A stretch of 64,000 nucleotides of DNA from positions 29,060,284 to 29,124,283 of the forward strand of contig NC_089857.1 in NCBI RefSeq assembly GCF_036373705.1. Direction: 5' to 3'. A program made the translations under genes and the position numbers. Positions 20,286 to 56,800 of this stretch are shown one piece after another (positions within the stretch are counted from its first letter, which is position 1; every line of letters starts with the position of its first letter). This DNA comes from Amia ocellicauda. Lineage: Eukaryota > Chordata > Actinopteri > Amiiformes > Amiidae. The notes under the pieces were generated by a model. It had not been told where the DNA came from. It made no database searches and saw only the letters and a program-made list of their open reading frames with translations.

Positions 20286-21187
20286 TACACCGATCAGCCA
20301 TAACATTATGACCACTGACAGGTGAAGTGCATAACACTGATAATATAATTATCATGGCACCTGTCAGTGGGTGGGATATATTAGGCAGCAAGTGAACATT
20401 TTGTCCTCAAAGTTGATGTGTTAAAAGCAGGAAAAATGGGCAAGCATAAGGATCTGAGCAACTTTGACAAGGGCAAATTGTGATGGCTAGACGACTGGGT
20501 CAGAGCATCTCCAAAACTGCAGCTCTTGTGGGGTGTTCCCGTTCTGCAGTGGTCAGTACCTATCAAAAGTGGTCCAAGGAAGGAAAAGCGGTGAACCGAC
20601 GACAGGGTCATGGATGGCCAAGGCTCATCGATGCACGGGGGAAGTGAAGGCTGGCCCTTGTGGTCTGATCCAACAGCCGAGCTACTGTAGCTCAAATTGC
20701 TGAAAAAGTTAATGCTGATTCTGATAGAAAGGTGTCAGAACACACAGTGCATCGCAGTTTGTTGCATATGGGGCTGCGTTGCCATAGACCAGTCAGGGTG
20801 CCCATGCTGACCCCTGTCCACTGCCGAAAGCACCTACAATGGGCACGTGAGCATCAGAACTGGACCACAGAGCAATGGAAGAAGGTGGCCTGGTCTGATG
20901 AATCACGAGTTCAAGGTGTTGATTTGGCCTCCAAATTCCCCAGATCTCAATCCAATCGAGCATCTGTGGGATGTGCTGGACAAACAAGTCCGATCCATAG
21001 AGGCCCCACCTCGTAACTTACAGGACTTAAAGGATCTGCTGCTAACGTCTTGGTTCCAGATACCGCAGCACACCTTCAGAGGTCTAGTGGAGTCCATGCC
21101 ACGATGGGTCAGGGCTGCTTTGGCGGCAAAAGGGGGACCTACAAAATATTAGGCAGGTGGTCATAATGTTATGGCTGATCGGTGTAT
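20286..21187 (+). mobile_element. Tc1/mariner element, internally deleted copy 3
   Basis: Third copy of the family at 5.45 and 11.39 kb, with well-preserved ends (ACCGATCAGCCATAACATTA left, its complement right). Coding remnants start at about 20436 and break early by frameshift near 20472. The shared catalytic deletion joint is at about 20900-20910. Confidence 0.9.
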
Positions 21188-30500: not shown

Positions 30501-33500
30501 GGGGCAGGAACGAACGACCAGCCTTCCAGTCACTCCAGGCAACGACGACACCAGGACCATGAAAAGGAAAGGAAAGCGCTGCTCTCCAAACCGCCAGTTC
30601 AGGTGACTGACCATAGACACCTTCTCAGACAGTATATTGATACAATACAGATGCAGCCAGTTGTCCCCAGACTCTACCTAACCCAGACTCTGGACCTAGC
30701 AATTCACTGGGTATGGTTGTCTGCTTAGATAATAATTTTAATCTGTTGATCTTTGGTCATTTTTAGTCACAATTTTGTTATATTACTGAAGTGATGATTG
30801 ATGTCCCAGGATTAAAGCCATTCAAGACAGATGTATAAAAAGACCACTGATTCCTATGTTTACAAATACTGAAACGCCGTATATCAACTTCAGTGCTGAT
30901 TTTCAGGAGCAAGACTTGTGAGATTAACAATATTTTAGTTGAATTGGCACATCTTGCTTTTTAAAATCATACGCCACTTCCAAGGTATAGGAAACGGAGG
31001 GTGTCGATTAGAGGAGTTCCTTCTAACTGGAGTGAGGTTGTTAGTGGAGTTCCACAGGGATCAGGTGCTTTTCCAGATCTGCAGGGACACACGCATCCAG
31101 GGACACAAATGGAAATTGGGCTTCAAGGCATTCAAGACAGAATACAGGAGACAATTCCTCACACAGAGAGTCGTCACAATCTGGAACAAACTCCCCAGCA
31201 ATGTGGTTGAAGCTGAAAATTTTGGAACATTTAAAATCAGACTGGATAGGATCCTTGGATTACTCAGTTATTAATGGACATTAAACGAGCATGATGGGTC
31301 AAATGGCCTCCTCTCATTTGTAAACTTTCTAATGGCCTTCTTATGTTCTTAAGGTTATAATCACAGTGTGATTAAAGAGGAAGTTGCCATAGTAGGTTCC
31401 TTGAGCCATTGGCCACCTGTGAGCTGCTTATTTTTAAATTGATCTTAATTGGTCTGGAATGAGTTTTGAGCAAAACTGGGCAGAAGACTGTAATTATCCA
31501 GATTTAAGACGAGGCATGGAGGAAAAATTATTACACTTCAGAGCACTGATGTATTTTTAGTACTCAAGATTGCTTATATAGATTATTTAAGTGTTGTGAA
31601 AGTGGTTTGAATGAGGATGGTGGTCCATTTCACAGCATCTACAAACCTTCTTTCCCTCAGAGCACTGAGAGGAGTTTTGACACAGAGCCCCACCCTGAGG
31701 GAGCGGCTGACCGGACAGAATCACCAACCAATCAGATGCGAGGCACCGGACAGGGGGGTGGATCAGTGGAGCAGCCGTTCATTAAATTGAGCCAGGAGGA
31801 GTATGGCGAGCACCACTCTTGCATCATGCACTGCAGGTGGGTGCCGGTTGGGAAACATCTCATGCCTAACTTGGGTTAGGCCATAGGATACCTCAGCAGT
31901 GTTAATCAATTGGTCTCTCAGCTTTGGTCTTGATGGTTCATGATGTAGGTTTTGACATGGACTACTGTTCAGTGGACCCCTCTCATCCTCTTATCTTTTG
32001 TCTTGCTGAGGTTGAGTTGAGGTTCAGAATTAATAATGTGTGTCATGTAATTAATGTAAAAATTAATTATTTGCTACAAGCACATGTATAAGTTAACCAT
32101 GATGTGTTTTATTATTTGCAGAATGTATAATTTCCCTTGATCTCTGCATTATACTTCAGTGGGTCAGTGTGTTAAATTTGTCTGTATATTCACTCCTGTC
32201 AGTTTCTTTATTTTTTCCTTTACATTGCTCAGTAAGGTTTGATATGTTACCTACTCCCTGTCATTCTTTTTTTCTCTGTATGTAATCTTTGCTGCTTGTC
32301 TCACTGCCCCATGCCCTCTCTGTTTCCATTCTAGGGTGGATTGCTCAGGGCGCAGAGTGGCAAGTCTCGATATTGATGGAGTCATCAAGGTCTGGTCCTT
32401 TAACCCACTCATGCAGACCAAGGCCACAATCATGTCTAAGTCTCCTCTTCTGTCTCTCGAGTGGGCCACCAAGCCAGACAGACTGGTATGTGTGATTCAA
32501 GTGGCCATAATTAGTGCTTGACAAAAATTCTCAACAAGAATAAACCAAGTCAGTATTTCCCCGACCAGGTATTAGCATAGACATGGCGGGGCGGCGGGGG
32601 ATGCTAACGGATTGTCGAGAGTGGGTGGCGGACCATGTGGTAGGGGAAACGCCATACAAGATCGGGTCTCCGAGCTCCTAAAACAACTCAAATGTTTGAA
32701 TATATAAATATAAGATGGATTTAAAAAGAGATTTGAAAGAGTAGATGGTATAAATACTATATAATAAATAATTTGGATATTTTAAAAAAGTAGTGTGCAA
32801 AATTGTTGTTATTTTACAGCATATTTCCTGCAAGCATGTAGCAGTGTTATTCTTTAACATGTAGAAGAATCGGTATGAATTAGTAGTTATTATAATACTG
32901 AAGAAACTATGGTAGAAGATTAGGAGTGAAAGGATAATGATAGATGGTTCACCGCAAAAGTTGTGTGACAGTGCCTAGACTAGTGTGTGTGCAGCTGTGA
33001 TAGCTACCATGGATGTGTATTTTGCGGATGCTTAATTGCAGTAAAATGACTGCAAAACCATGTTCTTTGTTATATTTTCTTTAGAGAACGTTGTTAATAT
33101 TTTGTCAAAATCTATAATTTGAATTTTGTCTTTTGTTGTTTTATTTATGGCTGTATAATCTTGACCACCTTGAAAGAAGGTCCTATAATAGGAATAATTC
33201 AAATCTTTCACCGTTTGGACTTCAAAAGTTATGCCTGAATTTCTTTCCATGAATTTCCAGCGAGAATCCTATACAGATCTGTATGGTTTAGTGTGCTTTG
33301 AGCACATAGATTTGAGCACAGAGAGATCTGCTTCAAGAAATATAAATATACAGCAGCAATATTTCCATTGTCTCCTTGTGTATTATGTCAGCTGCTGCTG
33401 GGAAGTGGTGTGGGAACCGTGCGGCTGTATGACACCGAAGCCAAGAAGAACCTTTATGAGATGACAATTGATGAGGCGCATCCCAGGTAGGATTGCAAGC

Positions 33501-36500
33501 AAAAAGAAAAGTAACTTTTAGGCACACAACTATGCTTATATACAGTGAGGGGAAAAAAGTATTTGATCCCCTGCTGATTTTGTACGTTTGCCTACTGACA
33601 AAGAAATGATCAGTCTATAATTTTAATGGTAGGTGTATTTTAACAGTGAGAGACAGAATAACAACAAAAAAATCCAGAAAAACGCATTTCAAAAAAGTTA
33701 TAAATTGATTTGCATGTTAATGAGGGAAATAAGTATTTGATCCCCTATCAATCAGCAAGATTTCTGGCTCCCAGGTGTCTTTTATACAGGAAACGAGCTG
33801 AGATTAGGAGCACTCTCTTAAAGGGAGTGCTCCTAATCTCAGCTCGTTACCTGTATAAAAGACACCTGGCCACAGAAGCAATCAATCAATCAGATTCCTA
33901 ACTCTCCACCATGGCCAAGACCAAAGAGCTGTCCAAGGATGTCAGGGACAAGATTGTAGACCTACACAAGGCTGGAATGGGCTACAAGACCATCGTCAAG
34001 CAGCTTGGTGAGAAGGTGACAACAGTTGGTGCGATTATTCGCAAATGGAAGAAACACAAAATAACTGTCAGTCTCCCTCGGTCTGGGGCTCCATGCAAGA
34101 TCTCACCTCGTGGAGTTTCAATGATCATGAGAACGGTGAGGAATCAGCCCAGAACTACACGGGAGGATCTTATTAATGATCTCAAGGCAGCTGGGACCAT
34201 AGTCACCAAGAAAACAATTGGTAACACACTACGCCGTGAAGGACTGAAATCCTGCAGCGCTCGCAAGGTTCCCCTGCTCAAGAAAGCACATGTACAGGCC
34301 CGTCTGAAGTTTGCCAATGAACATCTGAATGATTCAGAGGAGAACTGGGTGAAAGTGTTGTGGTCAGATGAGACCAAAATCAAGCTCTTTGGCATCAACC
34401 CAACTCGCCGTGTTTGGAGGAGGAGGAATGACCCCAAGAACACCATCCCCACTGTCAAACATGGAGGTGGAAACATTATGCTTTGGGGGTGTTTTTCTGC
34501 TAAGAGGACAGGACAACTGCACCGCATCAAAGGGACGATGGACGGGGCCATGTACCGTCAAATCTTGGGTGAGAACCTCCTTGCCTCAGCCAGGGCATTG
34601 AAAATGGGTCGTGGATGGTATTCCAGCATGACAATGACCCAAAACACACAGCCAAGGCAACAAAGGAGTGGCTCAAGAAGAAGCACATTAAGGTCCTGGA
34701 GTGGCCTAGCCAGTCTCCAGACCTTAATCCCATAGAAAATCTGTGGAGGGACCTGAAGGTTCGAGTTGCCAATCGTCAGCCTCGAAACCTTAATGACTTG
34801 GAGAGGATCTGCAAAGAGGAGTGGGACAAAATCCCTCCTGAGATGTGTGCAAACCTGGTGGCCAACTACAAGAAACGTCTGACCTCTGTGATTGCCAACA
34901 GGGGTTTTGCCACCAAGTACTAAGTCGAAGGGGTCAAATACTTATTTCCCTCATTAAATGCAAATCAATTTATAACTTTTTTGAAATGCGTTTTTCTGGA
35001 TTTTTTTGTTGTTATTCTGTCTCTCACTGTTAAAATACACCTACCATTAAAATAATAGACTGATCATTTCTTTGTCAGTGGGCAAACGTACAAAATCAGC
35101 AGGGGATCAAAACCTTTTTTCCCACACTGTAGGACCTGCCAAGCACAAGAAGTTTAAAGGAGACACCAGCTAATATAAACCAATGCTTTTCCTAACCTGT
35201 TGTGCAGGATCCTGTCTCTGGCCTGTAGCCCCAGTGGGACGTCCTTTGTGTGCTCAGCAGCTGCCCACAGCCCTCGATCGGGGAGCCTGAATGAGAGTGG
35301 GGGTCGAATCTCTGTCCCTGTCTCAGGACAACTGCTGCTGTGGGACACCAAGACCGTGAAACAGCAGGTAATAGAGAGGAAGATGTTGGGGGACCAAACT
35401 GGAACTAAAACACATCTTTCACAACCAGTTTGCATACTTTTACATACTATGATCTTTTCCTCCTTTGAAAGTGAAGTGGTTGAAAACATCACACACAGGT
35501 GCTTTTCAACCTGAGTCTGATGGTTGGTCCCTAGTTTATCCATTCCATGATAGTCATTTTAAGATAATTACCTTCTAAACAGAAGTGCAGTCTGTTCAAT
35601 TTGTGAAGAAATTAATTATCCAGAAATGCATTCTTTTGATGTCGTGTTTATTTTATGTCTATTTTGGCTGGAGGTTTAATCACAGATATCAGTTGAATTA
35701 CAAACTCTAATTGGAACTGTCACTGTTTTACAGTGTGTACTTTACAGTGTGTAAGACTTCACAGCTCATGTAACCTGCACCTGGGAAGTCTTAAAATCTT
35801 AAAATCAGTTTTGCTATTCCCATTCTAGTAATTGTGAAATCCCCTGAAAGCTCCCAGAAGCTTTCAGTTCAATCCAGAAGAGAGGGAATTTGTATGTACC
35901 CATTTAGAAAGAAACCCTGTATAATAGCTTTATTGAGTTTCTGCTATACTCCTTTAGCTCCAGTTCTCTCTTGAACCTGGGCCCGTGGCGATAAACTGCA
36001 CAGCCTTCAACCACAATGGCAACCTGTTGGTCACTGGGGCTGCTGATGGGATAATCCGACTCTTTGGTAAGTGACTTGAACTTCCAAAAATGAATATAAG
36101 ACTGCTCTCATCACAGAGAGAAATCAGTGCCAAAGCCTTTCCATCACTAGGAATGTGACAGTCCTTTTCATCGGACACTTGAAGAGGTTTTTCCTGTTGT
36201 TTGTTTGTTTGAATGTCACAGATTCTTTACAGATTGCAATCAGTTCTGTTTTAAACCTTTTTCCATGTCCAAATCATAGTTGCGTGACATCGTTCTGCAC
36301 TACCTTGAATTCCATCCTAAGTAAATGTAGATTCTTCAGGACTATTCTAAGAGGTTCTGTCCTTGGATTCCCTCAGATATGCAGCGGTATGAGAGTGCAA
36401 TGAGCTGGAAGGCCCACGAGGGAGAGGTGTATTCAGTGGAGTTCAGCTACGATGAAAACACCGTCTTCAGCATCGGGGAGGATGGCAAGGTGAGGCTGCT

Positions 36501-38071
36501 CCTCTCAGCCGAGTAATATTGTCCAAACTACTTAACTGCTAGTTACATTGATTTAGAAGAGTTGCTTGGATGATATTCATAATTTCTTACTGATTTCCTC
36601 CTGATTATATGCACCTCAGTGATCATTGTGCTGTCAGGACTAATATCAGTATTGCACCTGCTATGCCTAGAGTCGTGTAACTGGATTTCTTTTCCTGTAA
36701 AGTTCCTGGCAGCGGAACAACGTGACAACTCAGATGCTAATGTCTGAAGCTGTTACCGTTAGAGCTGTTAATTGTCTGGCCTATAAAAAGATAAGCAGAC
36801 AAGATAGAGAATCATCTCACATCAGTGTAAATTTAACTTAGATCGTAGAAAAACGCATACATTATTAACTACTTCTATAAACTGTAGTGATGTGTAACTC
36901 ATTGGGGGTGTCCCTGAACAGGCACTATATATTAATTAAGGGAGTTTTGTATAACCACCAGCAGCAGCTGAAGCTGTTCTCATTAAATGTAATGAATTAA
37001 TTTAGCTCCCTAGGCACACAAGCAAGTACATTCTTAACTTTACACAGTGCTGTCAGTAGCACGCATTTTCACTCAAGCTTTCACTGCAACTTTGTAACCC
37101 AACTGAAGACTGTTAGTGTTGTACAAATCTGATGTCTGCTGTGTGATTGGAGTTGTCCTGGAAAGGGTTAACTTCCAGGCGGGAGGTGAGTTCTGGTCTG
37201 AGAGAGACTTAGAAGTGGTTAATGTTCATGTTTGTGGAAAAAAGGTTAAGACACACTAAACGTGGTGCTAGTTTATAAGACAGTCTTGTCTGCTTTATTC
37301 TCAGCCAAAACATAACATAACAGGAGTGGCACCTAACCTGCTCAGCTCTTCCCTCCTTGTCCCGTAGTTCATTCAGTGGAACATCCACCGCAGTGGGGTG
37401 AAGCAGTCTGAGTATTCCCTGCCCCAGGACGCCACGGGCCCCTTTGTGCTCTCAGGGTACAGTGGGTACAAGCAGGTGCAAGTCCCAAGGGGGCGGTTGT
37501 TTGCCTTCGATTCAGAGGGGAACCACGTACTGACCTGTTCCAGCACCGGAGGACTCATCTACAGGGTAAGATTATCCCCTGAGGATGGTGGGTATAACAA
37601 TGTAGCATGGACCTGTTGTAGTGACGTGCCTCCCCAAGACAACAAAGCGTCTCGAAGCCTTGGTTTTTGGCTTCATGTTTTTTTGTGCTCATTCTGGGCT
37701 GTGTAGATAGGGCTCTGGGGGGGGGTATATGTGATAGAGGTTCAAATCTGAGGTCTGATGTGCTTATGCCAATATGCCCAAACGCAAGGGTTCGCAACAC
37801 GTTGAACCGCTTCCTGGAAAGATTTGTATCCGTACCTCAGCAGGCACGTTGCACGGTAACCTTCAGTGAGCAAAAGCCTAAAAGAGTGTCTGCTTCCCTA
37901 CAGCTGAACGATGGGGAGAGTGGCCTGGAGAGTGTGCTACCTCTGGGGGGCCACAAAGCGCCCGTGGTCACAGTGGACTGGTGCACTGCCATGGACTGTG
38001 GCACCTGCCTCACTGCCTCTATGGACGGCAAGATCAAACTGAGCACACTGCTGGCACAGAAATCCTACTAG
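24551..38071 (+). CDS. WDR91: WDR91, WD repeat-containing protein 91 (endosome maturation)
   Basis: Fifteen coding exons: 24551-24673, 25109-25288, 25562-25781, 26632-26705, 27113-27222, 28109-28280, 30447-30602, 31661-31836, 32335-32485, 33392-33486, 35208-35367, 35958-36066, 36377-36489, 37368-37565, 37904-38071. Phases close to 734 codons; human WDR91 is about 747. The N-terminal third is helical ([12 protein letters not shown]..., [31 protein letters not shown]). A polar linker follows, then a WD-repeat propeller from about exon 8 to the end ([39 protein letters not shown]). In mammals WDR91 binds Rab7 and, with WDR81, lowers endosomal PI3P during early-to-late conversion. The least certain joint is exon 3 to 4, where the model gives HSMHILLVLLSF against human CMPVPVILNF. 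Transposons occupy introns 6 and 10. Confidence 0.95.
27223..27473 (+). promoter_or_regulatory. Possible intronic 3' end in WDR91 intron 5
   Basis: If the donor at 27223 is not used, the frame reads Leu then TGA immediately, and an AATAAA follows at 27468-27473. This would give a truncated protein ending after the N-terminal helical region. Sequence possibility only. Confidence 0.25.
28904..30129 (+). mobile_element. Tc1-like element in WDR91 intron 6, nearly intact
   Basis: Ends start CACTCACCTAAAGGATTATT and are inverted at 30104-30127, flanked by TA. Full length at about 1.2 kb. It lies in the same orientation as WDR91, between exons 6 and 7. Confidence 0.92.
29057..30095 (+). pseudogene. 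Tc1 transposase with one frameshift
   Basis: The frame opening near 29057 ([15 protein letters not shown]...) covers the paired helix-turn-helix DNA-binding region and reaches the first catalytic Asp in AWSDESRF. It then breaks at a T4 run at 29528-29531, where one extra T moves the reading frame. The other frame carries the rest to 30095, with the second Asp in [11 protein letters not shown] and the Glu in NPIEHLWD. Its end, KVKGGQTQY, is the normal family C-terminus. Apart from this single base it appears complete, which suggests recent activity. Confidence 0.88.
30985..31355 (+). repeat. LINE fragment (jockey/L2-like) in WDR91 intron 7
   Basis: A reverse transcriptase snippet ([18 protein letters not shown], 31010-31065) is joined directly to the C-terminal block of the same protein class ([19 protein letters not shown], about 31125-31260). 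Most of the polymerase is deleted between them. It ends in a GGTCAAATGGCCTCCTCTC-type tail common at LINE 3' ends in fish. Dead fragment. Confidence 0.75.
32551..32653. repeat. Small GC-rich MITE-like repeat in WDR91 intron 9
   Basis: A GC-rich island of about 100 bp in AT-rich intron starts CAGTATTTCCCC and ends GGGGAAACGCC, so its ends are imperfect inverted copies. A hAT-type MITE is plausible but the family is uncertain. Confidence 0.4.
33771..33869. repeat. Long near-perfect hairpin inside the IR/DR Tc1 element
   Basis: The arm 33771-33818 is repeated inverted at about 33824-33869 with a loop of only a few bases; the shared core includes GAGCTGAGATTAGGAGCACT and its complement. It ends about 40 bases before the transposase ATG, so it could affect its expression or generate small RNAs. 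Confidence 0.85.
33911..34923 (+). pseudogene. Tc1 transposase with one frameshift (IR/DR element)
   Basis: The ATG at 33911 starts a frame with an N-terminal helix-turn-helix region ([20 protein letters not shown]), a basic linker, and the first catalytic Asp in VLWSDETK. It runs to about 34615, where one G appears to be missing from a GGATGG-TATTCC stretch. The other frame continues 34615-34923 with the second Asp in [11 protein letters not shown] and the Glu in NPIENLW, ending NRGFATKY. With that single base change the enzyme is otherwise complete. Overlapping minus-strand open frames are shadows. Confidence 0.9.
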
Positions 38072-39711
38072 AACCCCTGCTGGACACGTAACAAATGTGG
38101 GCCACAGCCAAGTAGATCTACTGTGTCTCATTGCCGTCTGACTGCGGCCATCTTTGATTACACTTCACATAAGTAATGACTAAAATGTCCTAAACATTCT
38201 TAGCTGGTATGTTTTGCTTTTGCTGCCTTGATGTTTACTTTTGTTTTGTCAGCTGTAGCCTGACATTCGCTACATCTTGTTCTGTTAGTAAATTAGTTTA
38301 CTAATATCATATGTAATGTTTGTAAATGTACAGCGCAAATGGGTACTTGTGCCACTAAAAAGCTTCCTCTAAAACAGTTTTTCTGTGTTTTCCATGATTG
38401 TTTGGACTCATTCAGATTGTCCCTGGTGAGGTATTAATTTATATTGGTTAGAAGAGAGAGATGTGTCACTGATGTAATTGGTTTAACTTGAGGCCTCAGT
38501 AAAAATGGCCACGATATACACTTGTCCTTTAAATCAAGAAAATAATGTCTCTGAAAGAAAAGAAAAGCATATCTGACAAATGCCAAAAATCAATCCGTTC
38601 AAAGCGATGGTGTGTAGGACAAACCTTGGCCTTCGTAATTGCTGCAACCCTTCTGATCGATGATTTGGAGAAAACCAAAATCTCTTTATATAATCTCTCT
38701 ACATAGCACAAGTACAATTCATTACAAGGGTAAGGAGATTAGTCCTGTATGTTTTAGTTATATAGTGTATTTTACTTATAAGGAACAACCATCATAACCA
38801 TTTAAGGAGTAGGTTTTCAATTACTTTTGATGGCAAAAATGTATCAATATATTGTGAATTTAGCCTTTAAATCAGGAATAGTATAGTCTTCACAGAGGGC
38901 AACCCTGGTCCAACATCATTGATGAATCACTAGAGTCAGTGGTCAATTGGTTTGGTTTTTGTGCATAATTCACCTGAATAATGAAGGAAATACTCAAGAG
39001 ATGCAAACTCTTGTCAGTAATTTATTTTTTGAAATGATACAGGTAATAGAACATTGTAAGCACATTTGTAAACAGCTTTTTAAGCAAATAGAATTAGAAA
39101 TGGAGAACTGCAATTTGCCACCTATAATCTAACTTCTAAGCTCATCGGTCTTAATCCTTTCATGGTCTTGTACATTCTACATAAACCAGCATGTGTACAC
39201 AAGGAATGAGTAAAGCATTTTGATGCCCACCACAGGTAGTAATAAAAAACTTCAGTTATTAACAACAGAATAATCAAAAAGATGCCTGCAGGGTTATAAA
39301 GACAAGCTGTGCTCACCCAGCTGTAATAGAGGGAACGTAATAATACCTTTGATATGGAAGCAATATTTCCAGAGGAGGTTAAAAACAGCACTGTTACATG
39401 ATGACTTATCAAAATGTGACTGACTGCCATCCTCACACAAGAGTGAAGTCTCACTACAGGTTCATCCTTCTGAATCACGAAATACACAGGAATGTGAGAA
39501 AAAACGTCAAAGATTGTCTGCAGCTTGTTCCTTATAGGTATGTTTGTTTACCACAGCATCCAAAACTTACATGACATTGGAATAATAAGGTATGAAGCCT
39601 AGGATAATATAAAGTACATTGTTGCTTGGCGTGGTTGAGATTGCTCCATCTTAATGAAATGCTATGAATTTAGTCAAGCTATTATTTTGTGGACTGCTGC
39701 CACATGCTAGT
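38072..39711. other. WDR91 3' UTR and intergenic DNA; bicupin 3' UTR
   Basis: No coding exon seen. WDR91 and the minus-strand bicupin gene face each other here, with stop codons about 1.6 kb apart. TTTATT at 39021-39026 reads as AATAAA on the minus strand and may end the bicupin transcript. I see no canonical AATAAA close downstream of WDR91. Confidence 0.5.
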
Positions 39712-42700
39712 TTAAGGCAAGTTAATGTCTTGGCGAGTCTTGAAGATGGGGATTTTCTGGAACTCACTTTGCTTCTTCCTGAAAAGCTGGGCTAATATGA
39801 AGTCTGCTGTGGACTGGAAGTAGATGTTCATGTTCATGGTTTGCAGCTGTCAAAAAGAAATAAATACATAATCATTAAAAAAAAGGAGAAAACTGCACAG
39901 GTCTTTCAATGTAAAACAAAATATGGCATAAGAACAATTCTAGTCCACAGTTCCTTCCCCAGGCATACCCTGAAAACACAAGAGTTTCCACATAAAGAAC
40001 GAGCTATCCAAGTGCCTACTTACCTCATTGCCAGTACTGTAGCCAATGACCAGAAACAAATCCTCCTTGCATTTGCTCTTCATGTAGTGTTGAGTCCCAC
40101 GAGGGAAGAAAAAGACGTCTCCCTTCTTAATGTCGAAGTCGGCCACACCTCTGTCTATGACACCAACCTGCAATACAAGTGCATTTTCTTTTTCAATAAC
40201 AGATCTGACCACTGTCTTGCTCCATTAAAGTTGCATATGGAGCACAATAAGGGGACAGGTCTTTTTCATTTTCATTTATGTGGAACTGGGGACGTTGTAT
40301 AATTAACAGTTCCAATCCAGTAGTGTGTATTTAAAAGGGAGGTAGAATTCCAGTCCCCAAGGGCCACAATGTGTTTAAGCTTTCATCACACAAATTTGCA
40401 AATTTATTACATGAATGATTTAATTGTACCCTTTTGCAGCTCTTTATCCCAAGTTTTATACTGCTCCTTATGAAATGCCTTCAAATAAAAAACAACAACC
40501 GCAACATGGAAATTGTTTAACTGTAAATGAAGTGTGTAGTCTATGTGTATTGAGTGTATGGGACTTTATGTGTGTCCTTTGCTCGTGAGTTACATCAGTA
40601 CTTGGCTTCCTGAAGCTGACACACAAGTGGTTTACCACTGTCTGTATCTCCTTTCAACACAAACAGAAAAGACGTCCTTCCCTACCGTCCCACAGCCACT
40701 CAGCACATATCCCATCTCATTGGCATTGCCATGGAAGTGGGGCTGCCTCATGCCATTAGTGAAGATCCTCATTGTCGCAATGGTCACTGTGTCTTCATGC
40801 TGTGGGTTGAGAAATCAAACGCTTATCTTTAAATCATTCAGTGGGGAGAATGAACTCCCCACATGTTAGAAAAGGATAATATTAAAATATACAAATAAAG
40901 AGAGTTGAGATCACAAATCATCAAATCTTTGCGTTAGTATTTAGTCCAGGGTGCATTTGAAATGACAAACTACAGCAACCAAGAATGGTGATGGTCCTCC
41001 AGTAATAAACAGTACTATATTATATATTACAAGGCAGATGCTTGTAAGACTACAATGAAATAAGGAGGTGCCACACGCGTAAATACCCAAGTAATCAACT
41101 TCCAACTGGATTCCCTTAATGAAGTACAATAATACAATTTAATACAATACAGATTTATCATGTGCATTTAGTCAAGACCTCAAGGTGCTTCACGTAAAAT
41201 TACAATGCTGACTCAAGGAAACTGGTCTTAAGCCAAGATTTTAAAACAGACCAAAATGCAGTCTGATATAATTTGACACAATTCCATAAAAAAGCAACAA
41301 ATGATCAGCTAATGGTCTAACAGTAATAGTTTCTTAAATTCTACTATTATGAATTGCAAACGAGCCTGTCTGCTTTCACAACACTAATTTTATTTATTTA
41401 TTTGGGGTTTTACTTTGTGAGGATGTGGTTTGAGAAACAGTCTTTTGAGTGTTTTAATCTCTAATATTTGTTTCATAGGCAAATGAATAAATAAATGTTC
41501 TGTAGAAAAAAAACAGGAAGAAAGGGTATTGGCCTGTTTTAGTGCATCTTTATGGGATAACATTGGTGGTTTCAATCTAAAGATGAAGGTAAGGAACTTT
41601 TGACCAGTTTAAGCAACACGGAGCACAACTACACAGACAGGAAATGAGCAAAGCGTCTGGATCAGGAGCCAGGCACGAAAGCAAACAAGACAGATCCCAA
41701 TCTCCCACTAAAGACTAACAGCAAAACCAGAAAACCAACAGTCTTGTGACTACACTACACCACACACCGCATTTTGTGTTAAAACTTTGATATACAATAA
41801 ATAAATGTTTCACTTTCTGTTGTAATGTTTTTATCTGTAAAAGGAGTTACTGAAATAGCAAGGTCATATCATTTTGGTGCCTTGTGAGTGGTGACAGAAT
41901 CAAGTCAGGTGAATAAAACACAGCTCTGAAGTGCAGGGGCAGGGACAGCAGTGGGTGTCCATTTTCACCCCAGTGAAAACTGAGCTAGCTGACAATTTCT
42001 CACTGATCTGACTATCGATTGTCTTATTCGTTATCTTATGAGAAGGGTAACGGATGCGAGTAATCTGCCCCATAACTGTTGCTGAATTGCAACTGAGACT
42101 TGAGGAAACACCAATTGGAAGCCTTGATCTAAAAGTACAATCTGTTCCCTTCTTTTTTCTTTTTAAAGAAATATACCCATATTGATTATTAATGAAAATG
42201 AAATATTTCCCTTATAGAAAAGAGCATGACTAATGTAATTTATTTCACTACCAAAATCAAACTGCATGCTTTTTCTGTTTTTAATAAAATAGTGCCTGAG
42301 GGTAACTCCACAAGCTCTGTCTAAATAGTTTTAAATGCTAATAAACCTGCTTGTTGTTTTGCATTTGCTTGAATATGTATTTCATGAAGAGCTGTGGAAT
42401 GGTTATATATGGGTGTATAGTGTTGCAGCTACTTGGAAATTAATTTCACCATTAATTTGTTATCGTGACATTTTCTACTACAGGAACTTATAAAACATCT
42501 GCCTGTAATAACAGAAAAGGTCCAGTCCCTTTCTGTGTTTATTTGATATCCCCAAATGAGTGAGATCTCACTGAAACGCTGTCATTACATTTTTGGTAAA
42601 GGTGTAACAAGTAGACTCTAACATGGTGATATTCCTATGCACTTAATATATTGAACTAATCCTTGAGAAACTGAATAGCAGAGTTTCTCTGATCATAAAG

Positions 42701-45535
42701 CAGTCTTACCTCGTGGAGGGATTTAGCAAATACTTTTTCATTGGGTGAACTCCAAGTTGATTTCTTTAAATATCTTGCCCACTGCATCACTCCACCTGGG
42801 TACCTGAACTGCTTTGAAGCTAAAAGAGGCAGAATAATTTAAATCATCATCATCATCCTCATTATTTTTATCATCTTACTTTTTATAACACCTTTGTTGT
42901 AAAAGCATCTCAAAGTGCTTTACAATATAAAGAGAACAAGAGCAATGCAAAATAAAATCAAAGAAATGGTTAGAGCATAAAATGAACTATTCAAGCTGGA
43001 TTTGGAATAATCATGTTGCCTTATATAAGGAAAAAGGAAAGCAGATTTGTACCTTTGAGATCAAAGAAGTACCTCCAAACTAGGAAATTCTGGGACTGTA
43101 TGTAACTGGCTTTGTTCACCAGCTCTTTGAGATTAGGAGGAAGATTGACAGCCTGGTTCTCTTTGGGCTGCTTGAAGGACTTGATAAAATTGATCCCACC
43201 CTTAGGCTGGAATCAGAAGAAAAAGTCAGGATTTGCAGTAGCTTTATAAATCAGTTTCTCAAAGAACTGTAGTTTCAAATCTCTATTCCAGAATGACCTT
43301 AGGAAATTCAAACTGATTTAAGAAAGCTATGGACTGTAAGTGGAATATATTTAAAACTATGTTAATTAACAAAATCCCATGTAATGAGAGAAAATGTATC
43401 GGCAACTAATCTTGTTTAAGCCAAATAAATCAATCAAATCAAATGCTCGGGGTTCTTTATTTCACAGGCGCAGTCAACACAGGTGCCCAGTTCTAAGATG
43501 TGTATTGTTTGGCTTTTGAGGAAGGGGGTAGATCTGGCAGTGTTGTTATGTAACTGTGACAGCTTGGGCGTCTCTGGCTCATTTTACCTTGAGGGATTGA
43601 GCGGCAATTTCTTGCGGTGTGGCGTAGAAGACATCATCCACATCCCGGGAGAGCAGCTCATCACTGGTGCTGAAGAACAGCACGAACAGGCAGTCCACAT
43701 CCCCCACACACTTCATCCAGTGCAGAGTGCCCCGGGGTAGGAAGATGACCTGTCCCACTGAGACGTTGTAGGACGTCACTTGAAAAGGAGCCGAGTCCAG
43801 GACACCAATCCATGCCTTGCCCTGATTAAAACACACAAAGCAACACAAGGTTCACACTATGCCTACGACTATGTCAGTCCTGCAGATCAATACAGTAATA
43901 CCTTAAATTAGAGAATATCTGTGACATTGAACTCTACAAGAGCAGAGATCTCATACAAACATCTGTTGTCATAAGTCAATTTTTATTTTAATAGTAATAA
44001 TAATGCCACTACTCCTAAAATAATAATTGTCAGTCTTACTGTTGCTAGGTACCCATGCTCGTTAGCATTGAAGTGCCAGTGAGGAACTCTACATCCATCA
44101 GGCTTAATCAGTAAAGTGGAGGCAATCATTTTGGCATTTTTCTCATGGATATAGTTGCCAAAGGCTTCTTCTTCCCTGGTGTCATAAGTGTTGGGGCTTT
44201 GCAGATACCTGGCCCACTGGACAACTCCGCCTTCCAATACAAATCTCTGTCAGACAGAAAAACAAGACCAGTTAGAACAGATTACCAGTTTACCAGAATT
44301 CATGATTATAAAAAAGTGGAAGACCAATTTTAGGGTGTAGCTCACAGAGAATGCAGCATTGGAAACGTAACTCCTAACTTTTTGAATTGACCCAACATTG
44401 CTGTTGCAAATTTAAGCTGCTGTACTGTGACACACATTTTGAAACCCACGTCAAAAAAGGGCTAACTATGAAAGTAAATCTAGTATTGAGTTATGGAGGC
44501 ATACATTAGTACACTAAACTATAAAGAAGCATATTATTTAAATACATATATGTATTGGAATATTGAAAAATGGCCATAAATATATTAAAATAGATGTAAA
44601 ACTATATTAAAGTAGATCTAATTAAGCACATATTCTCATAAATATATAATTTCACCAATCTCCTCTTCTAACATATTCTCTCAAACAAAATATTTAAGTT
44701 ATTGTTAATGTCAACAATAGTTCCATACCTTTGAACTGTCCATGTGATTCAGGTATTTGTATTTTGGGTCAACTGGAGCAGGGTTGCTTGGCTCCTCACT
44801 TTTCTCCCAATGACTTTCCTCCATCTGAATTTTCTCCACATGCCCTATCTCCTCACTGGGAGGTTTGAAAGTGGGAGTCAGGAGAACCACAGAGACTCCC
44901 AGCGCAATGGTAATAAAAGAGGTCAGCAGGCACACCACAAAGATCTTCATCAGGGAAATACGGATAGTCCTTATCTGAAAAAGACACTAGAATGAGCAGC
45001 CTGTTTTTGACAAAAATGAAATGGCCCCCAACCAGTGCTCTGTATTTACACTGTTACTGCTGTCCATTCATTTCAAAAACTCCGTGTTCTGAAGTAACAA
45101 AGCGAGTAAAATAATTCAGCTGAATTTCAACTGTATTTTGAGTGGCAGTCAGTAATTGCAATTGACTAATCTGTTTAGGATTTGTCAGAAATGCAGTGCA
45201 GTTTTAAAAGACCATGGACAACAATATTCATCAAGGTGATTCCTTCTAACTAAACCTCCAGCTATGCATTTCACACCCAAAGGGGAGAGCTGGTTAAAAA
45301 GTGGTTAGAAAGATCATAATGCAGAAGACTGATGATTAAACTGGAGATCTGAAGAGGTGAATAAAATCCTAAAAATACTTTTTAAAACTGGGATGTTAGT
45401 TCAGATTACCCTCTCAGCAGGAGTGATCAAGGTGTTATTGAGACTAACCTCGTTTACTGGGTCCTTTTCTCTCATTTTACTCTTGTTGTAGAGATGCACC
45501 TTGTCATTGGTGGTTTCATTACTGTTGAAGTCCAT
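39712..45535 (-). CDS. Membrane-anchored bicupin, oxalate decarboxylase-like
   Basis: Nine coding exons in gene order: 45449-45535, 44729-44974, 44040-44246, 43588-43821, 43053-43206, 42710-42819, 40686-40799, 40024-40167, 39712-39846; 476 residues, all phases consistent. Residues 1-39 are polar and basic, 40-61 form one hydrophobic segment (type II anchor), 62-111 a polar stalk. Cupin 1 has His167, His169, Glu174 (PHWHFNANEHGY) and His214 (FLPRGTLH). Cupin 2 has His367, His369, Glu374 (PHFHGNANEMGY) and His411 (FFPRGTQH). Both sets match the HxH-x4-E...H metal site of germins and bicupins such as bacterial oxalate decarboxylase, where Mn is bound. The catalytic part should face the lumen or cell exterior. 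The substrate is not known; oxalate is only a family-based guess. I recognise no vertebrate gene symbol for it. Confidence 0.88.
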
Positions 45536-45648
45536 TGCTAGGAAAACAAAAACAAAAACCAGTCACAAAGACTTACTTTCTTTTGGAAGAGATAGCAAGC
45601 AGTGTTCCGAAATTAAATGCATAAGGAAAGAAATATATCTATACTTAC

Positions 45649-45816
45649 TTGCCACTGACTGACCTGGTAAGTGATATAGTGTGGTTGTGCCTTTTAAAGC
45701 ACAGCAGAGAGATGCAATACAAAGAACTTCCCTTTGGTCAGGTTTTCAAAATTTGCAACTGCCTCCCTCTAAAAATAACCTATTGCAATATCTAACGGTT
45801 ACTGGTCTTTATAAAG
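45649..45816 (-). promoter_or_regulatory. Bicupin promoter and untranslated first exon
   Basis: On the minus strand a donor GTAAGTAT (45648 down to 45641) ends a leader exon. The acceptor TTTTCCTAG just before the ATG at 45535 completes a short intron. A TATA-like TTTATAAAG lies at 45807-45816, which would place the start near 45780. Positions of the start and leader are inferred. Confidence 0.4.
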
Positions 45817-46202
45817 ATTTATCTGGCTTTGCACTGCTGAAATCCCCCCCTTTGTAAGATAAAGACTTTCTAATTAATGCTCATTAGCATTTTATGGTTT
45901 TTTTTTTTTTCACTTAAGCATGAATTCATCAGAGCATTACGTCTCTACAACATCTTCATTGTTACAGGTCACTCGTAATCCAGATTTACAATTTGACTGC
46001 AGTTTTAAGTTGCATACCATAGGTATTTACATAAGTACCAAGCACAAGAATTAATTATCTTTTTTGACTACTATTGGTGAGGATAATATTCAATTGGAAA
46101 TAAGCAGTCTAGAAATGAAAGGTCAAATAGGTAGATGGACTGCACTTACTCTTTCATTCTCTGCTTGAACCGTCAGAGCAGGCCTGAAAATCAGGTCTTC
46201 TG

Positions 46203-46254
<52 letters not shown>

Positions 46255-46774
46255 AAGCCAGTCGCTATGTGAAGAGTGGGCTGAGAGACCCCTGACTGTA
46301 CCTAAAGAATCAGATGGCTTGAAAATGCATTTATCCCAGTAGACGTATACATCACCTTCATCTCTCTAAGGCTGATACCCAGCATGTATTTATTACTCTG
46401 GTTGAATGGTAATTGGTCATGCATATTTAGGCATCAAACTGAAATTACACTAAGTTTCCCACCTATACATACAAAATAAACTACTCTACATACCTTCTCA
46501 AAAATAAAAAAGGACAGACTTGGAGATGTTAACACACATTTATTTGATTTATATATAAAACATTTATATAAAAAATACATATATTTTTTAGTTTTAAAAA
46601 TACTTCCACAGACCTCATTAAGGCTTTTATACCATTTCAGTGTAAAATAAGAAATGGGTAATTTCAAAATGTTACAAAGTGCCTGGAATTTGCTTCAATC
46701 AACCATGCAACACTGATTTATGAGTTCAAAATTAATTTCACATAAAGATACATGTAATACATAGCATTTTCTTT
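45817..46774. other. Intergenic between bicupin promoter and LAS2 3' end
   Basis: Contains a (TA)n(CA)n microsatellite at about 46206-46254. TTTATT at 46539-46544 reads as AATAAA on the minus strand, a candidate LAS2 poly(A) signal about 230 bases past its stop. The rest is featureless AT-rich DNA. Confidence 0.5.
46206..46254. repeat. (TA)n(CA)n microsatellite
   Basis: Compound dinucleotide run, about 15 TA units followed by about 9 CA units. Confidence 0.95.
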
Positions 46775-49700
46775 TTAGGAAGTATTCAAATTTACTACAT
46801 CTTCCAAGTGTTTCTCTTTCAGAGCCACTTCCTCCTTCATGCTCTTTTCACTCATGTCATCAACGAGGTGCTTCAGCTTTTCCAAATGGTGCAAAGCCCT
46901 GAAAACAATTTCAAATTCATTTTAAAAAGCCAGATTAAGTAAAAGATTAGTGCAGTTAAAGTTTCAAGTAAGTAACAGAGCTCAGTTGAAACAAAAATAA
47001 GGACAGTGGGTCACCAGGCTCAGAGTTGAAAACCACAGTGTTTCAACAATTCAAAACAACGGTTGTGCTATTCATGAATTTGTTAACTCTTCTGACTTTA
47101 TGTACCAGAAGAGATAAGGGCCATACATGTTGTGTTGGGATAGATTGAACAATAATAATAATGATGAGGATAAAACGCAGGCACAGTGAAAGGTCTTTCA
47201 AATGATTATAAATAATGATTAATACAATTAATGAATAAAACAAGTGGCAAAAGTATCTATTCTGTAGTTCCATTTGAAAAGGAAAGTGTCTGCCTATAAA
47301 ATAACCAAATTGAATGTGTTGTGTACTGACTTCACAAATGACTTGCACACACATACACAAGTAGTTTGTCCTGCATCTAACAATCTCACTTCTGCAGGAG
47401 TCATCAACTTAGTTTGGCTGACTACTCGGTCTTGTCTGGAAATGGAGTGTAAGTGATGGGTCAAAACTGAATGCTTTAGATTTGTGATCTGCTTTTATTT
47501 TAACTGTAATCCAGGAAGCACTTTCTTCTTATTATTATAGAAATAAATGGGGGGAATTTGCATCAGTCCTCAACTGGGTCTCAATGGCACATGAAATAAC
47601 GTTTGGTTCTCTGGGCACAACTAAGGTTTCCCAGCTCATAATTAACAGGGTAAAAATTTGGATTTTAGAAAAAAAATTAGCTTTGTGCGTCTTATAGTGT
47701 GTATTTCAACAAGACTCTTACTTCTCCAAAGACTGACTGCCTTGTGCTGTTTCATAATCCACAAATGCAGATTTTCTGATCTGCCGTAAAAAGAGAAAGA
47801 TGACACTTGTGGTTACTTTCACAACATTTTTAACAGTTGACAGTTGGTGTAAAAAGAACGGTATTGCTCATGCAAACTAGAATACGTCTGCTTGCATGTT
47901 AAGATGTTTTAAAGTACAGTAAAGGTAATGTAAGGTTGTCAATTACTCGCCTCAGAACACCAATTTATCTGACTTGCAACAGTAGCTCAAACCCAGGAAT
48001 ACACTAAAGTTTTTAATATATGTATATCGCTAATGACACAGTAATATTTCATAGATTAAATTCAGCTGGGTAAGAAGTGGATTCTGAAGAATAAAAATTG
48101 ATGGGCATTTGTAACGATTAAGAATGTTTAACCTCTAAAGTGAAGTATTTATTGTGTATTCGGTTCCAAAAGTAACTTAAAGCCTTTCTAGAGACATGAG
48201 AGGAAAAAAAAAAAATGAGACACCAAATTAAAGACCGAGAATACGTGCAGGGCAGAGTACGGCAGTCACTCCCGCTGATGACCCATCTTTACACTGGTCG
48301 ATTCAGGACAGAGGCCAGTGGCATACGTTTATACAGATCCTGGAAATTAAAGAATCCTAGGAGTCCTCACTTTGCTAGGGGCCCGTTGGTGCTGCTGCTC
48401 AGAGGACTCCTGGCTGACACGCTGCTCCACAGTCTGCAAACTGAACAGCATCTGCTTCAAAGCCTCCACGGGCCCAGGGTGCTTTCTGCTGCTATAACCC
48501 GACGAAGATGAGCCTGCAGCCTTGAAACAGAATACAGAGGAGAGCACAAAGTCAAATATTAAATTCTCCAGTCACTGTCCTCTCAGACATGCTCTAGAGC
48601 AGATTCGGACGCATATGCACTTGCAGACATTTTTCAATTATTTACCTGTCAATCATGGAGAGACCATCTTACCTAACAATTACAATTAGCTTAATTCCAA
48701 TAATACTGCTTCCTGTTCTTCATAGATGTCACCTTCTAAGGTGCAGAATTGATTCAATTTAATTGGTTCAGGTGTAATTAGAAGGTCCTCGAGTGGTATT
48801 TACAATTTTAAGAAGTATTTGTAAATACATTTGAACCAAAGTCGGCCCGGCCCAGAAACCAGGTGTCTTAACTGCTCACAACAACTGTTAATTTTTAAAC
48901 TAAACACACACAATATGCTTAAATTTCTCCTTCATATTTGTGCAAGATGAATTTGATCAAACTTTCAGGATTTCAGATGCTATTAGCTTGATAGATTGTC
49001 TGTAGGTCCTGCAGTGTAGAAAATTTAAATAGCTTGATCTGCAACTGCACACACGTACTTCATGGCAACCTTTGGAATAAAACTTGACCATAGTGGTCAA
49101 AAATGGAAATACGAAATTTTAACCCAAATAGTTATGAATAGTTAAATAGTTAATAGATTAACAAAATAGTTTGTGTTAACTAAATTGCAGGAATGGATAT
49201 CACAGTTATTGCAGAATCATTTCCTATGTCTTCTGTATTACACAATTTTTATTTGAAAAGTAACCGTCTGTATTACATACATTATAAATGATAATGTACA
49301 TTCTATATAGAGGAACCAGTTTCTAAAGTGGCAGAACAGTGGGTTCCCTTTTTTCTCTGTGCTTGCACATCCTACATTACCTTGTGAAAAGCTAAAAAGC
49401 TTCACTTTTCCATTAATAGCAGACTACATGTAATAAAGCACACAGATACTTAATTTCACCTCTGTATATTAATAGCAGTGTTAAAGCTTGTTGAATAATT
49501 ATGACATTAAGTATTCTTACGAACCTCTATGCAGTCAGAGAGATCAGTGCTGGCAGTTTTATTAGGGTTTAGCCCTTTGGTGTCCCCTACTGGCACTGGA
49601 GATTTACTACAGAAGGAAAGAAATTAACAGAACATCTTAATGACAGAACAAGACATGTTAATTTATGGCACGTATAAATTAATCAATTTACACTGATTTA

Positions 49701-53805: not shown

Positions 53806-56800
53806 ATGGATTTCCTCAAGGTAGCAGATGACATTGTGCAGAAGTTGTGGTCTTACAACCAAGATGAGTCTGGCTGGACACTGGCGAAGAATTCAGTAAG
53901 GATTACATATTATATGACATGACAATTGGGTTTAGGTGGTGTACCCCAAACTTATTTCAATGCCCAAGCAACACATTCAGTGTTTGCCTCATGGCTACTG
54001 AATATCTGCAATAGCTGTAGTAATCCACTTCATAATTGAGGTAATAGTTACTCAATAAATTACTTAAGTTACCCACATAATATGGGTTTGTATTTCTTGT
54101 TTTTTCTTTTCTTTTATTCTAGAAAACTTCTGAGTGTACTGTCCACTCTCATTTTACCCAAATACAGTTATTCTGGTATCGGTGTTGCATGCTTTTCACA
54201 TGCATTGACCAATCAAGTCTAAATGTGTCTCTTGTCACAGAAGGATGTTGTTGTGTCTTGGAAGCCATCCAGCGAGTATGGAGGAAACATGTAAGCTTGT
54301 CTGACCATTTTGACGTGTGTGCAGGGTTTCATTTTTGGGGACACTCGGTTAATCTGTATGAAATGGCTTTTCCTGAACAATCTTAGAACAGAGCAAACAT
54401 TTAGGCCACAAGTAAGTAAGATGTAGAGCATCATGCAGAATAAAACTAATTATACATTATATGTTTATATAAAGGAATCTGTATCTATTACTGTTGATTA
54501 GTACATACAAATTCAGTTTAATTCTGTGAGTACTTTTTTGGAGCAAAAAGATGTCCCACAATATAAAATGCAAAGAAGAATTAAATCTTAACTATCCATA
54601 AAATCCATAGTCCATTCAGCCAACTCTTCCTCTACAAAGTATTTGTTATAGCATGAGAATACAGTCAATCTGATGTTGTATTAAAACCATTTTAAAAGTC
54701 TTTGGTTAATAGTGTCTAATTACATTCACTATTAACAATAATTGACTAAGTGAGATTGAGTTTATGTCCAGCTTTATGTCTGTTTTCAGGTACCGTGGCG
54801 AGGGCATAATAGAGGATACTCCAGAAAACATAATTCCTTTCATGTACTTACCTGAACACAGGATGCATTGGGACAAAGCCTTGAAATCTTACACTCTCTT
54901 AGAGAGAATCGATGAGGTAAAGTTAAAGTTAAACGCTTCCGAGTTTCCTTAGTTGGTGTAGCACTTTGTATTTGGCTGTAGTGAAATCACCTCTGTTCCC
55001 TACTGTTAAGGCCAGGCTTACATCATCCAAGCATGAGAAAAACTTTATTTGGCTGTGATTAAAAGAAGTGATTAAAAGAAACTGCTTCAAGTAAGTCTTG
55101 TGAGTTGTGTTATTGGACTAAAATATAGTGTTTGGTCTGCATATCTTGCTAATTAGCGTTTCACTTTTAACAGGACACCGCGATTTGTCACACAGTCACC
55201 CACAGTTACGGAATGGGATTAATTTCATCCAGGGACTTTGTTGATCTTGTCAGGGTTAAAAGATATGAAGGGGGGATAGTAACTACCAATTGTAAGTACT
55301 GCTGTAGAGTCATTATTCTAAAATCAATTACAATATTTTTTAGTTCTACAGTTACATAATGTTTTCTCATAAAACGGATTCTGGTTATATGTATTAAGAG
55401 CACTTCACTTATTAAATGTGGTCATCTGAAATGGGGTAGTCTTCTTTACAATGTGATGCAAGTTCTTTGGAAATCACTGCAGGCTTATCCTGAGAGAGTA
55501 GTACACGATGAACTGAAGAATTAAATGCACTCAAATCTACAATGTATCTATATTGTGACAATCCAGAAACTGTCAATTACGCCTCATATAATTTGAGTTC
55601 TCCTGTATGAGGGAAGTATCTAAATGTCACCTAAGGCTCATTATTATTTAAAAAAAAAGACTAACTGCTGGTCATTTCCTGTGCGAGTTTTTTTTTTTTT
55701 ACAGACTCTTAACCCCGGACTTAATTCTCCTGTTTACAGCTATGAGTGTTGATTACCCAGAATGCCCTCCTTCTCCTTCTCACATCAGAGGACATAACAA
55801 CCCCTGTGGATATGTGTGCTCACCTCTTCCACAGTAAATAGAACACATTCATAATTTATTCTGTCTGTCCCCCCTACCTTTGTTTTGGAAAATACCCTCC
55901 TATTTGTTTTCTGAAGTGATTAGCACTTATAAACTTTATCAGATATTCAGACACTACAGCGTACTCCACAAATGTTTATCATTATTGTTAGGTGAGGTTG
56001 TACTAGGTTTAGTCATGGTAGTAATAATAGTTAACAGCAAACTTACTGTGTGAATTTTATCATCTGGCAGACTATTCATTTGAATTATATAGTGCATATA
56101 CACACCCCTGTTTCCTTTTCTGTTTTTTGTCTGTGTTTTTGTTATTCTGTCTCTGTGGTCTCCCAATCATAAAACAAAACATCCTGTTTTGAGAGAGCTG
56201 ACAAATAAAACTGTTTTGTTTCGCCATTTGCTTTCCTGCAAGTCAAATTTCAGTTCAAATTCCCCCATGTCCGCTAGTCATTTCTCGAGCAGCTGTTGCT
56301 AAACAGAAAAACAAAACAAAAGCAAGGATAAGAAACTAAAAAATCATAACGGAGCGACATGCCAGTTTTGGTAGGCATCAACAAATATTAAAGTCATTAC
56401 AATTTTTATGGAAATTATGTAGAGTCCCATATGAGTCATCTCGGAACTGATGAGCAGTGATGTGCTCACGATTAAAAAAAATTAAATGTAATTTCTTACA
56501 CCCTTGGGTTCTGTTGGTCACTAACCTGTCACACATCCTTTCTTTATCATGCTGTTGGAGCATGAAGTGACATGTTAAGCTTTAGAGATCACTAAATGGT
56601 TATGTCTAATTAAATTTCTGTTTTATTGAACAAGCTAATAAAAACTATGCAGTTCTAATAAACAAAGAGGTAATCTAAGCGTTATTGAAAAGCAGTCAGA
56701 TTAGGCATATTCTATTGGGAATGTTATGTTCATATATCCACAATAAACAACTCATCAGACACACATACAGGAAAATATCATCTGGTCTGTATTCAAATGC

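Follow-up and report, generated by a model that had tools for sequence, protein, structure and literature searches.

The 64,000-nucleotide stretch of the Amia ocellicauda genome analysed here (the window) spans 29.06-29.12 Mb of a 45.5-Mb contig, NC_089857.1, in a genome of 988,188,214 bases, and contains a gene for a membrane-anchored protein with two cupin domains, a bicupin. Rebuilt from the sequence, this gene occupies positions 39712-45535 of the minus strand and consists of nine coding exons, comprising 476 codons with no internal stop (Table 1). All eight introns are delimited by GT and AG, the phases at the junctions are compatible, and seven of the eight junctions are in phase 0, that between exons 5 and 6 being in phase 1. 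A first-pass annotation of the locus had described nine spliced exons encoding two cupins, each with an HxH-x4-E motif and a later histidine; the rebuilt model reproduces this structure, and two stretches of the protein match the Pfam family Cupin_1 (E-value 1.2e-33), with Cupin_2 also matched. The ATG lies two bases past an acceptor-like sequence, TTTCCTAG, which, in combination with a donor-like GTAAGT at 45648, makes an upstream non-coding exon likely.

Table 1. Features of the bicupin gene and its surroundings, numbered from the first letter of the window except where another locus is named
Feature	Position	Strand	Remarks
Coding exon 1	45449..45535	-	N-terminus, residues 1-29; ends in phase 0; presumed cytosolic side
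Coding exon 2	44729..44974	-	Membrane helix with CLLAC motif, and stalk
Coding exon 2 start			Phase 0, nine codons before K39
Coding exon 3	44040..44246	-	First half of cupin 1; R164, H167, H169, E174
Coding exon 4	43588..43821	-	Second half of cupin 1; H214, lid-region E235
Coding exon 5	43053..43206	-	Inter-cupin linker
Coding exon 6	42710..42819	-	Start of cupin 2; GGVMQWARYL repeats GGVVQWARYL of cupin 1
Coding exon 7	40686..40799	-	Cupin 2 ligands R364, H367, H369, E374; F368 replaces the usual Trp
Coding exon 8	40024..40167	-	Cupin 2 with H411
Coding exon 9	39712..39846	-	C-terminal helices and stop
Candidate non-coding exon 1 and TATA-like box	45649..45698	-	Consensus only; TATA-like sequence from 45698
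Candidate donor GTAAGT of the 5' exon	starts 45648	-	Consensus only
Coding acceptor AG	ends 45538	-	Consensus only
Candidate polyadenylation signal AATAAA	39021..39026	-	Downstream of the stop; consensus only
POLI	60487-60852, 58080-58856	-	UBM 3e-12; solved DNA polymerase iota 2.1e-10
STARD6	54746-54952	+	Best PDB match StAR-related lipid transfer protein 6, 2mou, 4.9e-6
MBD2-like exon, beyond the window past POLI	L089:8013-8108 (C8:29132296-29132391)	+	Match to an assumed MBD2 fragment
MBD2-like exon, beyond the window past POLI	L091:2446-2550 (C8:29146729-29146833)	+	Match to an assumed MBD2 fragment

The AlphaFold2 model of the protein (overall predicted local distance difference test, pLDDT, 72.7; predicted template modelling score 0.69), calculated from the window protein aligned to 51 of 80 bacterial loci, shows a helix spanning residues 26-53 and, after a stalk modelled with low confidence, two cupin barrels, in which ten-residue blocks have pLDDT values of 84-94 across residues 151-230 and 90-95 across residues 351-430. 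The predicted helix agrees with the earlier description of the protein as membrane-anchored, and these results support the identification of the gene as a membrane-anchored vertebrate bicupin with two complete ligand sets. A single NxS/T site, N199, is found in the lumenal part. Two further Pfam families, AraC_binding (22.8 bits, cut-off 21.1) and JmjC_2 (22.4 bits, cut-off 22), barely pass on the second cupin; they were rejected as separate identities and are read as overlap inside the cupin fold. The nearest solved relatives, by both sequence and predicted fold, are the bacterial MncA and oxalate decarboxylases such as OxdC. The likeness to germins and oxalate decarboxylases originally suggested is upheld, although in sequence MncA and OxdC are nearer to the protein than germin is; no germin is among the 50 fold matches listed, which excludes nothing.

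The first metal site reads R164-V-P-H167-W-H169-x4-E174, with H214, and the second R364-Q-P-H367-F-H369-x4-E374, with H411, each cupin following the form R-x2-HxH-x4-E plus a later histidine. These were compared with 84 bacterial bicupins, six from plasmids and 78 from genomes (the 80 loci less L069 and L086, dropped for length). In each half, the arginine and all four ligands are shared by 84/84, a count that is biased because the motif was built into both the genome scan, the pattern of which held R-[EQ]-x-H-[WF]-H, and the choice of open reading frames, which required R-x2-HxH and favoured frames in which the HxH-x3,4-E motif occurs twice; neither asked for the later histidines (214 and 411). 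R164 and R364, aligned with arginine in all 84 (again, a residue in the search pattern), are the equivalents of OxdC Arg92 and Arg270, named as the substrate arginines in the available text of PMC3585803. The proton donor of OxdC, Glu162, is found within a lid of sequence SENS; the corresponding lid of the bicupin reads DELL, in which E235 aligns with a glutamate in 69 of the 84 bacterial proteins.

The two halves of the bicupin are 37% identical over 134 columns, and both have the sequence GGV(V/M)QWARYL followed by an insert without counterpart in the bacterial rows shown. Stretch and insert together cover residues 117-148 and 317-346, most of the insert having a pLDDT below 50. The first-pass annotation had suggested a cupin phylogeny; that built here covers bacterial half-domains only, its 72 sequences being both halves of 35 loci, hand-picked from 86, and the two window halves. 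The latter are sisters with support of 100/99, and four approximately unbiased (AU) tests rejected nesting either of them within the corresponding half-clades of one or other bacterial bicupin group (p values of 0.0009, 0.0033, 0.0004 and 0.00035, weakened by the groups having been named after the tree was seen). When the N-terminal insert region was removed and locus L020 dropped, sisterhood was retained at 99/96, the window pair joined the smaller of the bacterial groups (28 rows, 95/92), and two AU tests gave p values of 0.005 and 0.023. A duplication separate from the bacterial ones appears likely from these trees; it is unproven, because the window branches are long, the sample contains no eukaryotic bicupin other than the window's, and gene conversion would give the same sister pattern. 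Similarity between halves is not itself special to the window, as bacterial halves are also closest to their own partners (mean score 244 over 83 loci, L002 being skipped, versus means of 113-124 to the window halves).

The membrane anchor links the gene to DYNAP. Within the N-terminal 111 residues the sole Pfam family matched is CLLAC, to which DYNAP belongs (PF15675; 6.1e-5), at residues 35-56. In the strongest test, a blind search of the whole genome with the CLLAC model, the bicupin membrane exon ranked first at 24.7 bits, or 25.1 bits, over the cut-off, with its neighbours in frame, and the runner-up scored 20.6 bits; this search scored 41 candidates and listed nine places at E-values up to 10, none of the others passing the cut-off, and hence no second DYNAP gene was seen. 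Shuffling the helix abolished the CLLAC match in 9/9 cases. The human DYNAP sequence, the letters of which are assumed here to be correct, matches CLLAC over its full length at 63 bits. Only 1 of 5000 shuffles reached the score with which the fish anchor aligns to it, the clearly alike stretch being limited to around 25 residues.

From the phase-0 exon start to the aligned lysine there are nine codons in the fish gene and, in the assumed sequence, twelve in dynAP. According to the exon table of PMC8329785, residue 101 is where the dynAP membrane exon, exon 3, begins, in phase 0. The product sizes given in the available part of the same paper, 649 and 497 bp, differ by 152, yet 55 residues correspond to 165; this mismatch affects the start at residue 101 and leaves the phase of exon 3 unaffected. 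DynAP is there described as a type II protein, located in the Golgi and at the plasma membrane, whose C-terminus faces outwards. DYNAP and the fish bicupin share a locus, gene order, a CLLAC helix, a phase-0 intron before that helix and, as predicted, type II topology, and the agreement of position, anchor, intron and predicted topology indicates that the two genes are very probably orthologues. The supposition that mammals are without such a gene is amended accordingly: it is probably present as DYNAP, with the cupin part absent.

Among the neighbours originally named, POLI and STARD6 were confirmed. The gene between STARD6 and the bicupin is presumed to be LAS2 (C18orf54); no Pfam family scored above its cut-off in three pieces of the window and a typed stitch of two exons. 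A (TA)15 simple repeat is present at 46207-46236, between the bicupin and this putative LAS2 gene. On the other side, the gene at 25109-38071 on the plus strand is taken to be WDR91, weakly supported by a single CTLH-like match to Pfam (5.2e-7) among three scanned pieces; as human WDR91 is on 7q33, the join between this gene and the block on the DYNAP side would be unlike the human arrangement. The same side carries Tc1/mariner-type transposase frames, all on the plus strand, at 33902-34735, 29054-30095, 5769-6305, 11487-12097 and 20669-21152. The Pfam family HTH_Tnp_Tc3_2 was found in three of five frames scanned (33902, 29054 and 5769, being absent from 17442 and 30423); frame 33902 has a Sleeping Beauty-type helix-turn-helix, and the frames at 11487 and 20669 were assigned by visual inspection alone.

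Beyond the window, past POLI, two methyl-CpG-binding exons match an assumed MBD2 fragment at 97% and 86%, MBD2 and MBD3 not being distinguished, and these extend the shared gene order. RAB27B was not found within the 104 kb searched with an assumed sequence of it. Read along the minus strand, the order and strands of the fish genes are the same as those in human, where the strands are assumed to be MBD2 -, POLI +, STARD6 -, C18orf54 + and DYNAP +. The human chromosome 18 order is given as MBD2, SNORA37, POLI, STARD6, C18orf54, DYNAP, RAB27B, CCDC68, TCF4 in Table 2 of PMC4868023. The available text of PMC5327424 describes the block as highly conserved in amniotes, and that of PMC5327406 includes DYNAP among the block's genes in birds. 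From the shared order and strands, the bicupin gene sits at the place of DYNAP.

Elsewhere in the genome no second copy of the bicupin was found, as all seven protein matches and both Cupin_1 matches, among the best candidates scored, fall at this locus. Similarly, no relative was detected in viral contigs or phages that would indicate a viral origin, one PHROGs family of unknown function matching a single cupin stretch at 5.8e-8, and positions 38000-47000 have no Rfam match to a structured RNA. In the open-access literature, searched by title and the start of the abstract, nothing on such a vertebrate bicupin was among the matches listed, and no cupin was found in connection with DYNAP/C18orf26, most subscription papers and all genome annotation databases being beyond reach; fish gene lists may already include an annotation of the gene. 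In the main text of PMC4633127, on spherulin, which is reported to be a bacterial gene in sponges, the word cupin occurs 0 times.

It is proposed, with a probability for the whole of roughly 0.5, that this gene is the fish orthologue of DYNAP and encodes a type II bicupin acting as a manganese carboxylate enzyme, the cupins of which were lost towards human. The protein would pass the membrane once, a short cytosolic N-terminus being followed by the CLLAC-type helix, the stalk and then the bicupin, which would face, if the orthology with DYNAP is correct, the Golgi lumen or the cell exterior. On the way to human DYNAP, the exons of the bicupin would have been lost, leaving a membrane exon that ends in a Ser/Thr-rich tail. 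The bicupin would probably be a manganese-dependent enzyme of the oxalate decarboxylase or MncA kind, in which an acid could be held by Arg164 or Arg364 at a metal ligated by three histidines and one glutamate, with the lid-region E235 as candidate proton donor favouring decarboxylation over oxidation. The binding of metal at both sites is highly probable. Likewise, the bicupin was probably ancestral and lost rather than gained, loss being favoured because it is the simpler change. Oxalate or a similar small dicarboxylate is suggested as the substrate only tentatively, at somewhat short of even odds.

A number of observations weigh against this proposal. On the N-terminal 111 residues CLLAC scores 22.9 bits against a cut-off of 25, its genome-wide E-value is a modest 0.028, and the best match of the nine transmembrane shuffles to an unrelated family reached 0.012. 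The human DYNAP sequence is an assumed one, and two of four published primers translate to its peptides; the third (#1) agrees over VADI only, and the fourth is that of another isoform. In the cupins, the lid has two residues fewer than that of the OxdC-like rows, F368 stands for a tryptophan present in 84/84 bacterial bicupins (W168 is kept), and there is no acidic counterpart of OxdC Glu333, the bicupin reading LFLVIGY at what is presumed to be the place of that residue in its strand. The TIGR03404 score of 92.6 bits (E-value 2.6e-26) is below the curated cut-off of 254.2, although the two cupin barrels, each with three histidines and one glutamate, that characterize the family are present. 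The case for loss over gain is one of simplicity, and the evidence is computation on one fish genome, which establishes the gene structure, predicted fold, ligands and genomic position and detected no second copy, whereas orthology, loss, metal binding and substrate are deduced.

Some of these differences concern residues described for OxdC. Glu333 is named in the available text of PMC3585803. In the Bacillus subtilis enzyme, according to the parts of PMC8254039 available, Trp274 and Trp96 form an electron relay between subunits that is needed for efficient catalysis, and the W274F variant retains approximately 20% of the Mn-normalised kcat/KM. F368 would occupy the place of Trp274 if half 2 corresponds to the C-terminal half of OxdC, a correspondence that is uncertain. 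As the ligands, the arginines and E235 are kept, yet the lid, F368 and the Glu333 position differ, the site is complete for binding a metal and an acid, and its sequence is compatible with decarboxylation, oxidation or another reaction. Oxalate activity stays the guess it was in the first-pass annotation: the ligands and arginines fit, and the TIGR03404 score, F368 and the trees of the halves count against it.

Alternative explanations differ in how much of this proposal they retain, the chief two being non-catalytic ligand binding and an oxidase that produces peroxide. With DYNAP orthology kept, the cupins might be structural or non-catalytic binders, as in seed globulins, or might form an adhesion or metal-storage ectodomain, the gene functioning through its anchor as in DYNAP; this is somewhat unlikely, both ligand sets and both arginines being intact where storage would presumably not need them. 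The same orthology would also accommodate a germin-kind oxidase or superoxide dismutase producing extracellular hydrogen peroxide. Barley oxalate oxidase, a germin (PDB 1fi2), is matched significantly (3e-6 to 5e-6), and the lid is shortened, lid sequence being what sets decarboxylase versus oxidase activity in OxdC, where lid changes swing the enzyme towards oxidase (PMC3585803, in its available text); this reading is nonetheless unlikely, given that germin is matched far less strongly than MncA and OxdC and that the lid-region glutamate is kept. A fusion, in which a DYNAP-like ancestor gained a bicupin downstream of its membrane exon in the fish lineage, is compatible with a comparison confined to this fish gene and human DYNAP and with cupin halves that may have duplicated apart from the sampled bacterial bicupins. 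It is quite unlikely, the loss of seven exons being presumably simpler than the capture of a seven-exon lumenal domain.

The remaining alternatives deny the link to DYNAP or the vertebrate nature of the gene. The likeness could be coincidental, a fish-specific gene with a similar membrane helix lying at the same place: the clear resemblance covers only around 25 residues, membrane helices are of low complexity, and the human letters are assumed. This is improbable, as the exon is first in the whole-genome CLLAC search, has the same neighbours in order, shares the intron phase at nearly the same position and has the same topology as predicted. Bacterial contamination or recent bacterial transfer would fit the nearest sequences being bacterial, yet the collections searched comprised only the PDB and bacterial, archaeal, viral and plasmid sequences. 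The splice structure of eight GT-AG introns and the placement among vertebrate genes, at 29 Mb of a 45.5-Mb contig, rule out contamination, as had been argued from the outset, and identity to the 80 kept bacterial loci is at most 29%, such that the chance of a bacterial source is negligible.

No vertebrate protein is known to be a membrane-anchored bicupin with two intact metal sites. The preferred reading, that the gene is the orthologue of DYNAP, would account for the origin of a human protein described, in the available text of PMC8329785, as having an undetermined physiological function. If the fish enzyme degrades oxalate, it would represent an animal-made route for the disposal of this compound. 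Mammals handle oxalate mainly through excretion and gut bacteria. A contrary statement, that mammals do possess oxalate-degrading enzymes, is found in the available part of PMC9498451. In its boldest form, the proposal holds that human DYNAP, known for transforming cells, is what remains of an ancient vertebrate metalloenzyme of the cell surface, that the separately duplicated fish bicupin degrades oxalate or an acid like it, in the Golgi or extracellularly, and that the mammal lineage lost it; this combination is speculative and rather unlikely. If true, self-made oxalate breakdown would have been lost from that lineage along with the catalytic part.

Several known proteins provide points of comparison. 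DYNAP (dynactin-associated protein, C18orf26), a cancer-linked protein of 210 residues, has a Ser/Thr-rich C-terminus and no cupin, its membrane exon encoding the Ser/Thr-rich lumenal tail, whereas exon 2 of the fish gene instead continues into cupin exons. The cyanobacterial manganese cupin MncA (Sll1358, PDB 2vqa) is a near relative, but a bacterial protein that is not known to have a CLLAC anchor, and its relation to the bicupin is one of likeness. OxdC (PDB 1j58, 5vg3 and 6l9i) is approximately 16-19% identical over the fold; relative to it and to TIGR03404, the fish protein has a membrane anchor, a shorter lid, F368 in place of the relay tryptophan, an insert after GGV-QWARYL in both halves and possibly a separate duplication of those halves. 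Germins, the ligand set of which is presumably that of each bicupin cupin, are single secreted cupins, whereas the fish protein has two cupins and a membrane helix. The 11S and 7S seed globulins are storage proteins, while the bicupin keeps every metal ligand in both halves. Fold and sites are familiar ones, and what sets the fish protein apart is its membrane anchor, its vertebrate host, its link to DYNAP and the possible separate duplication.

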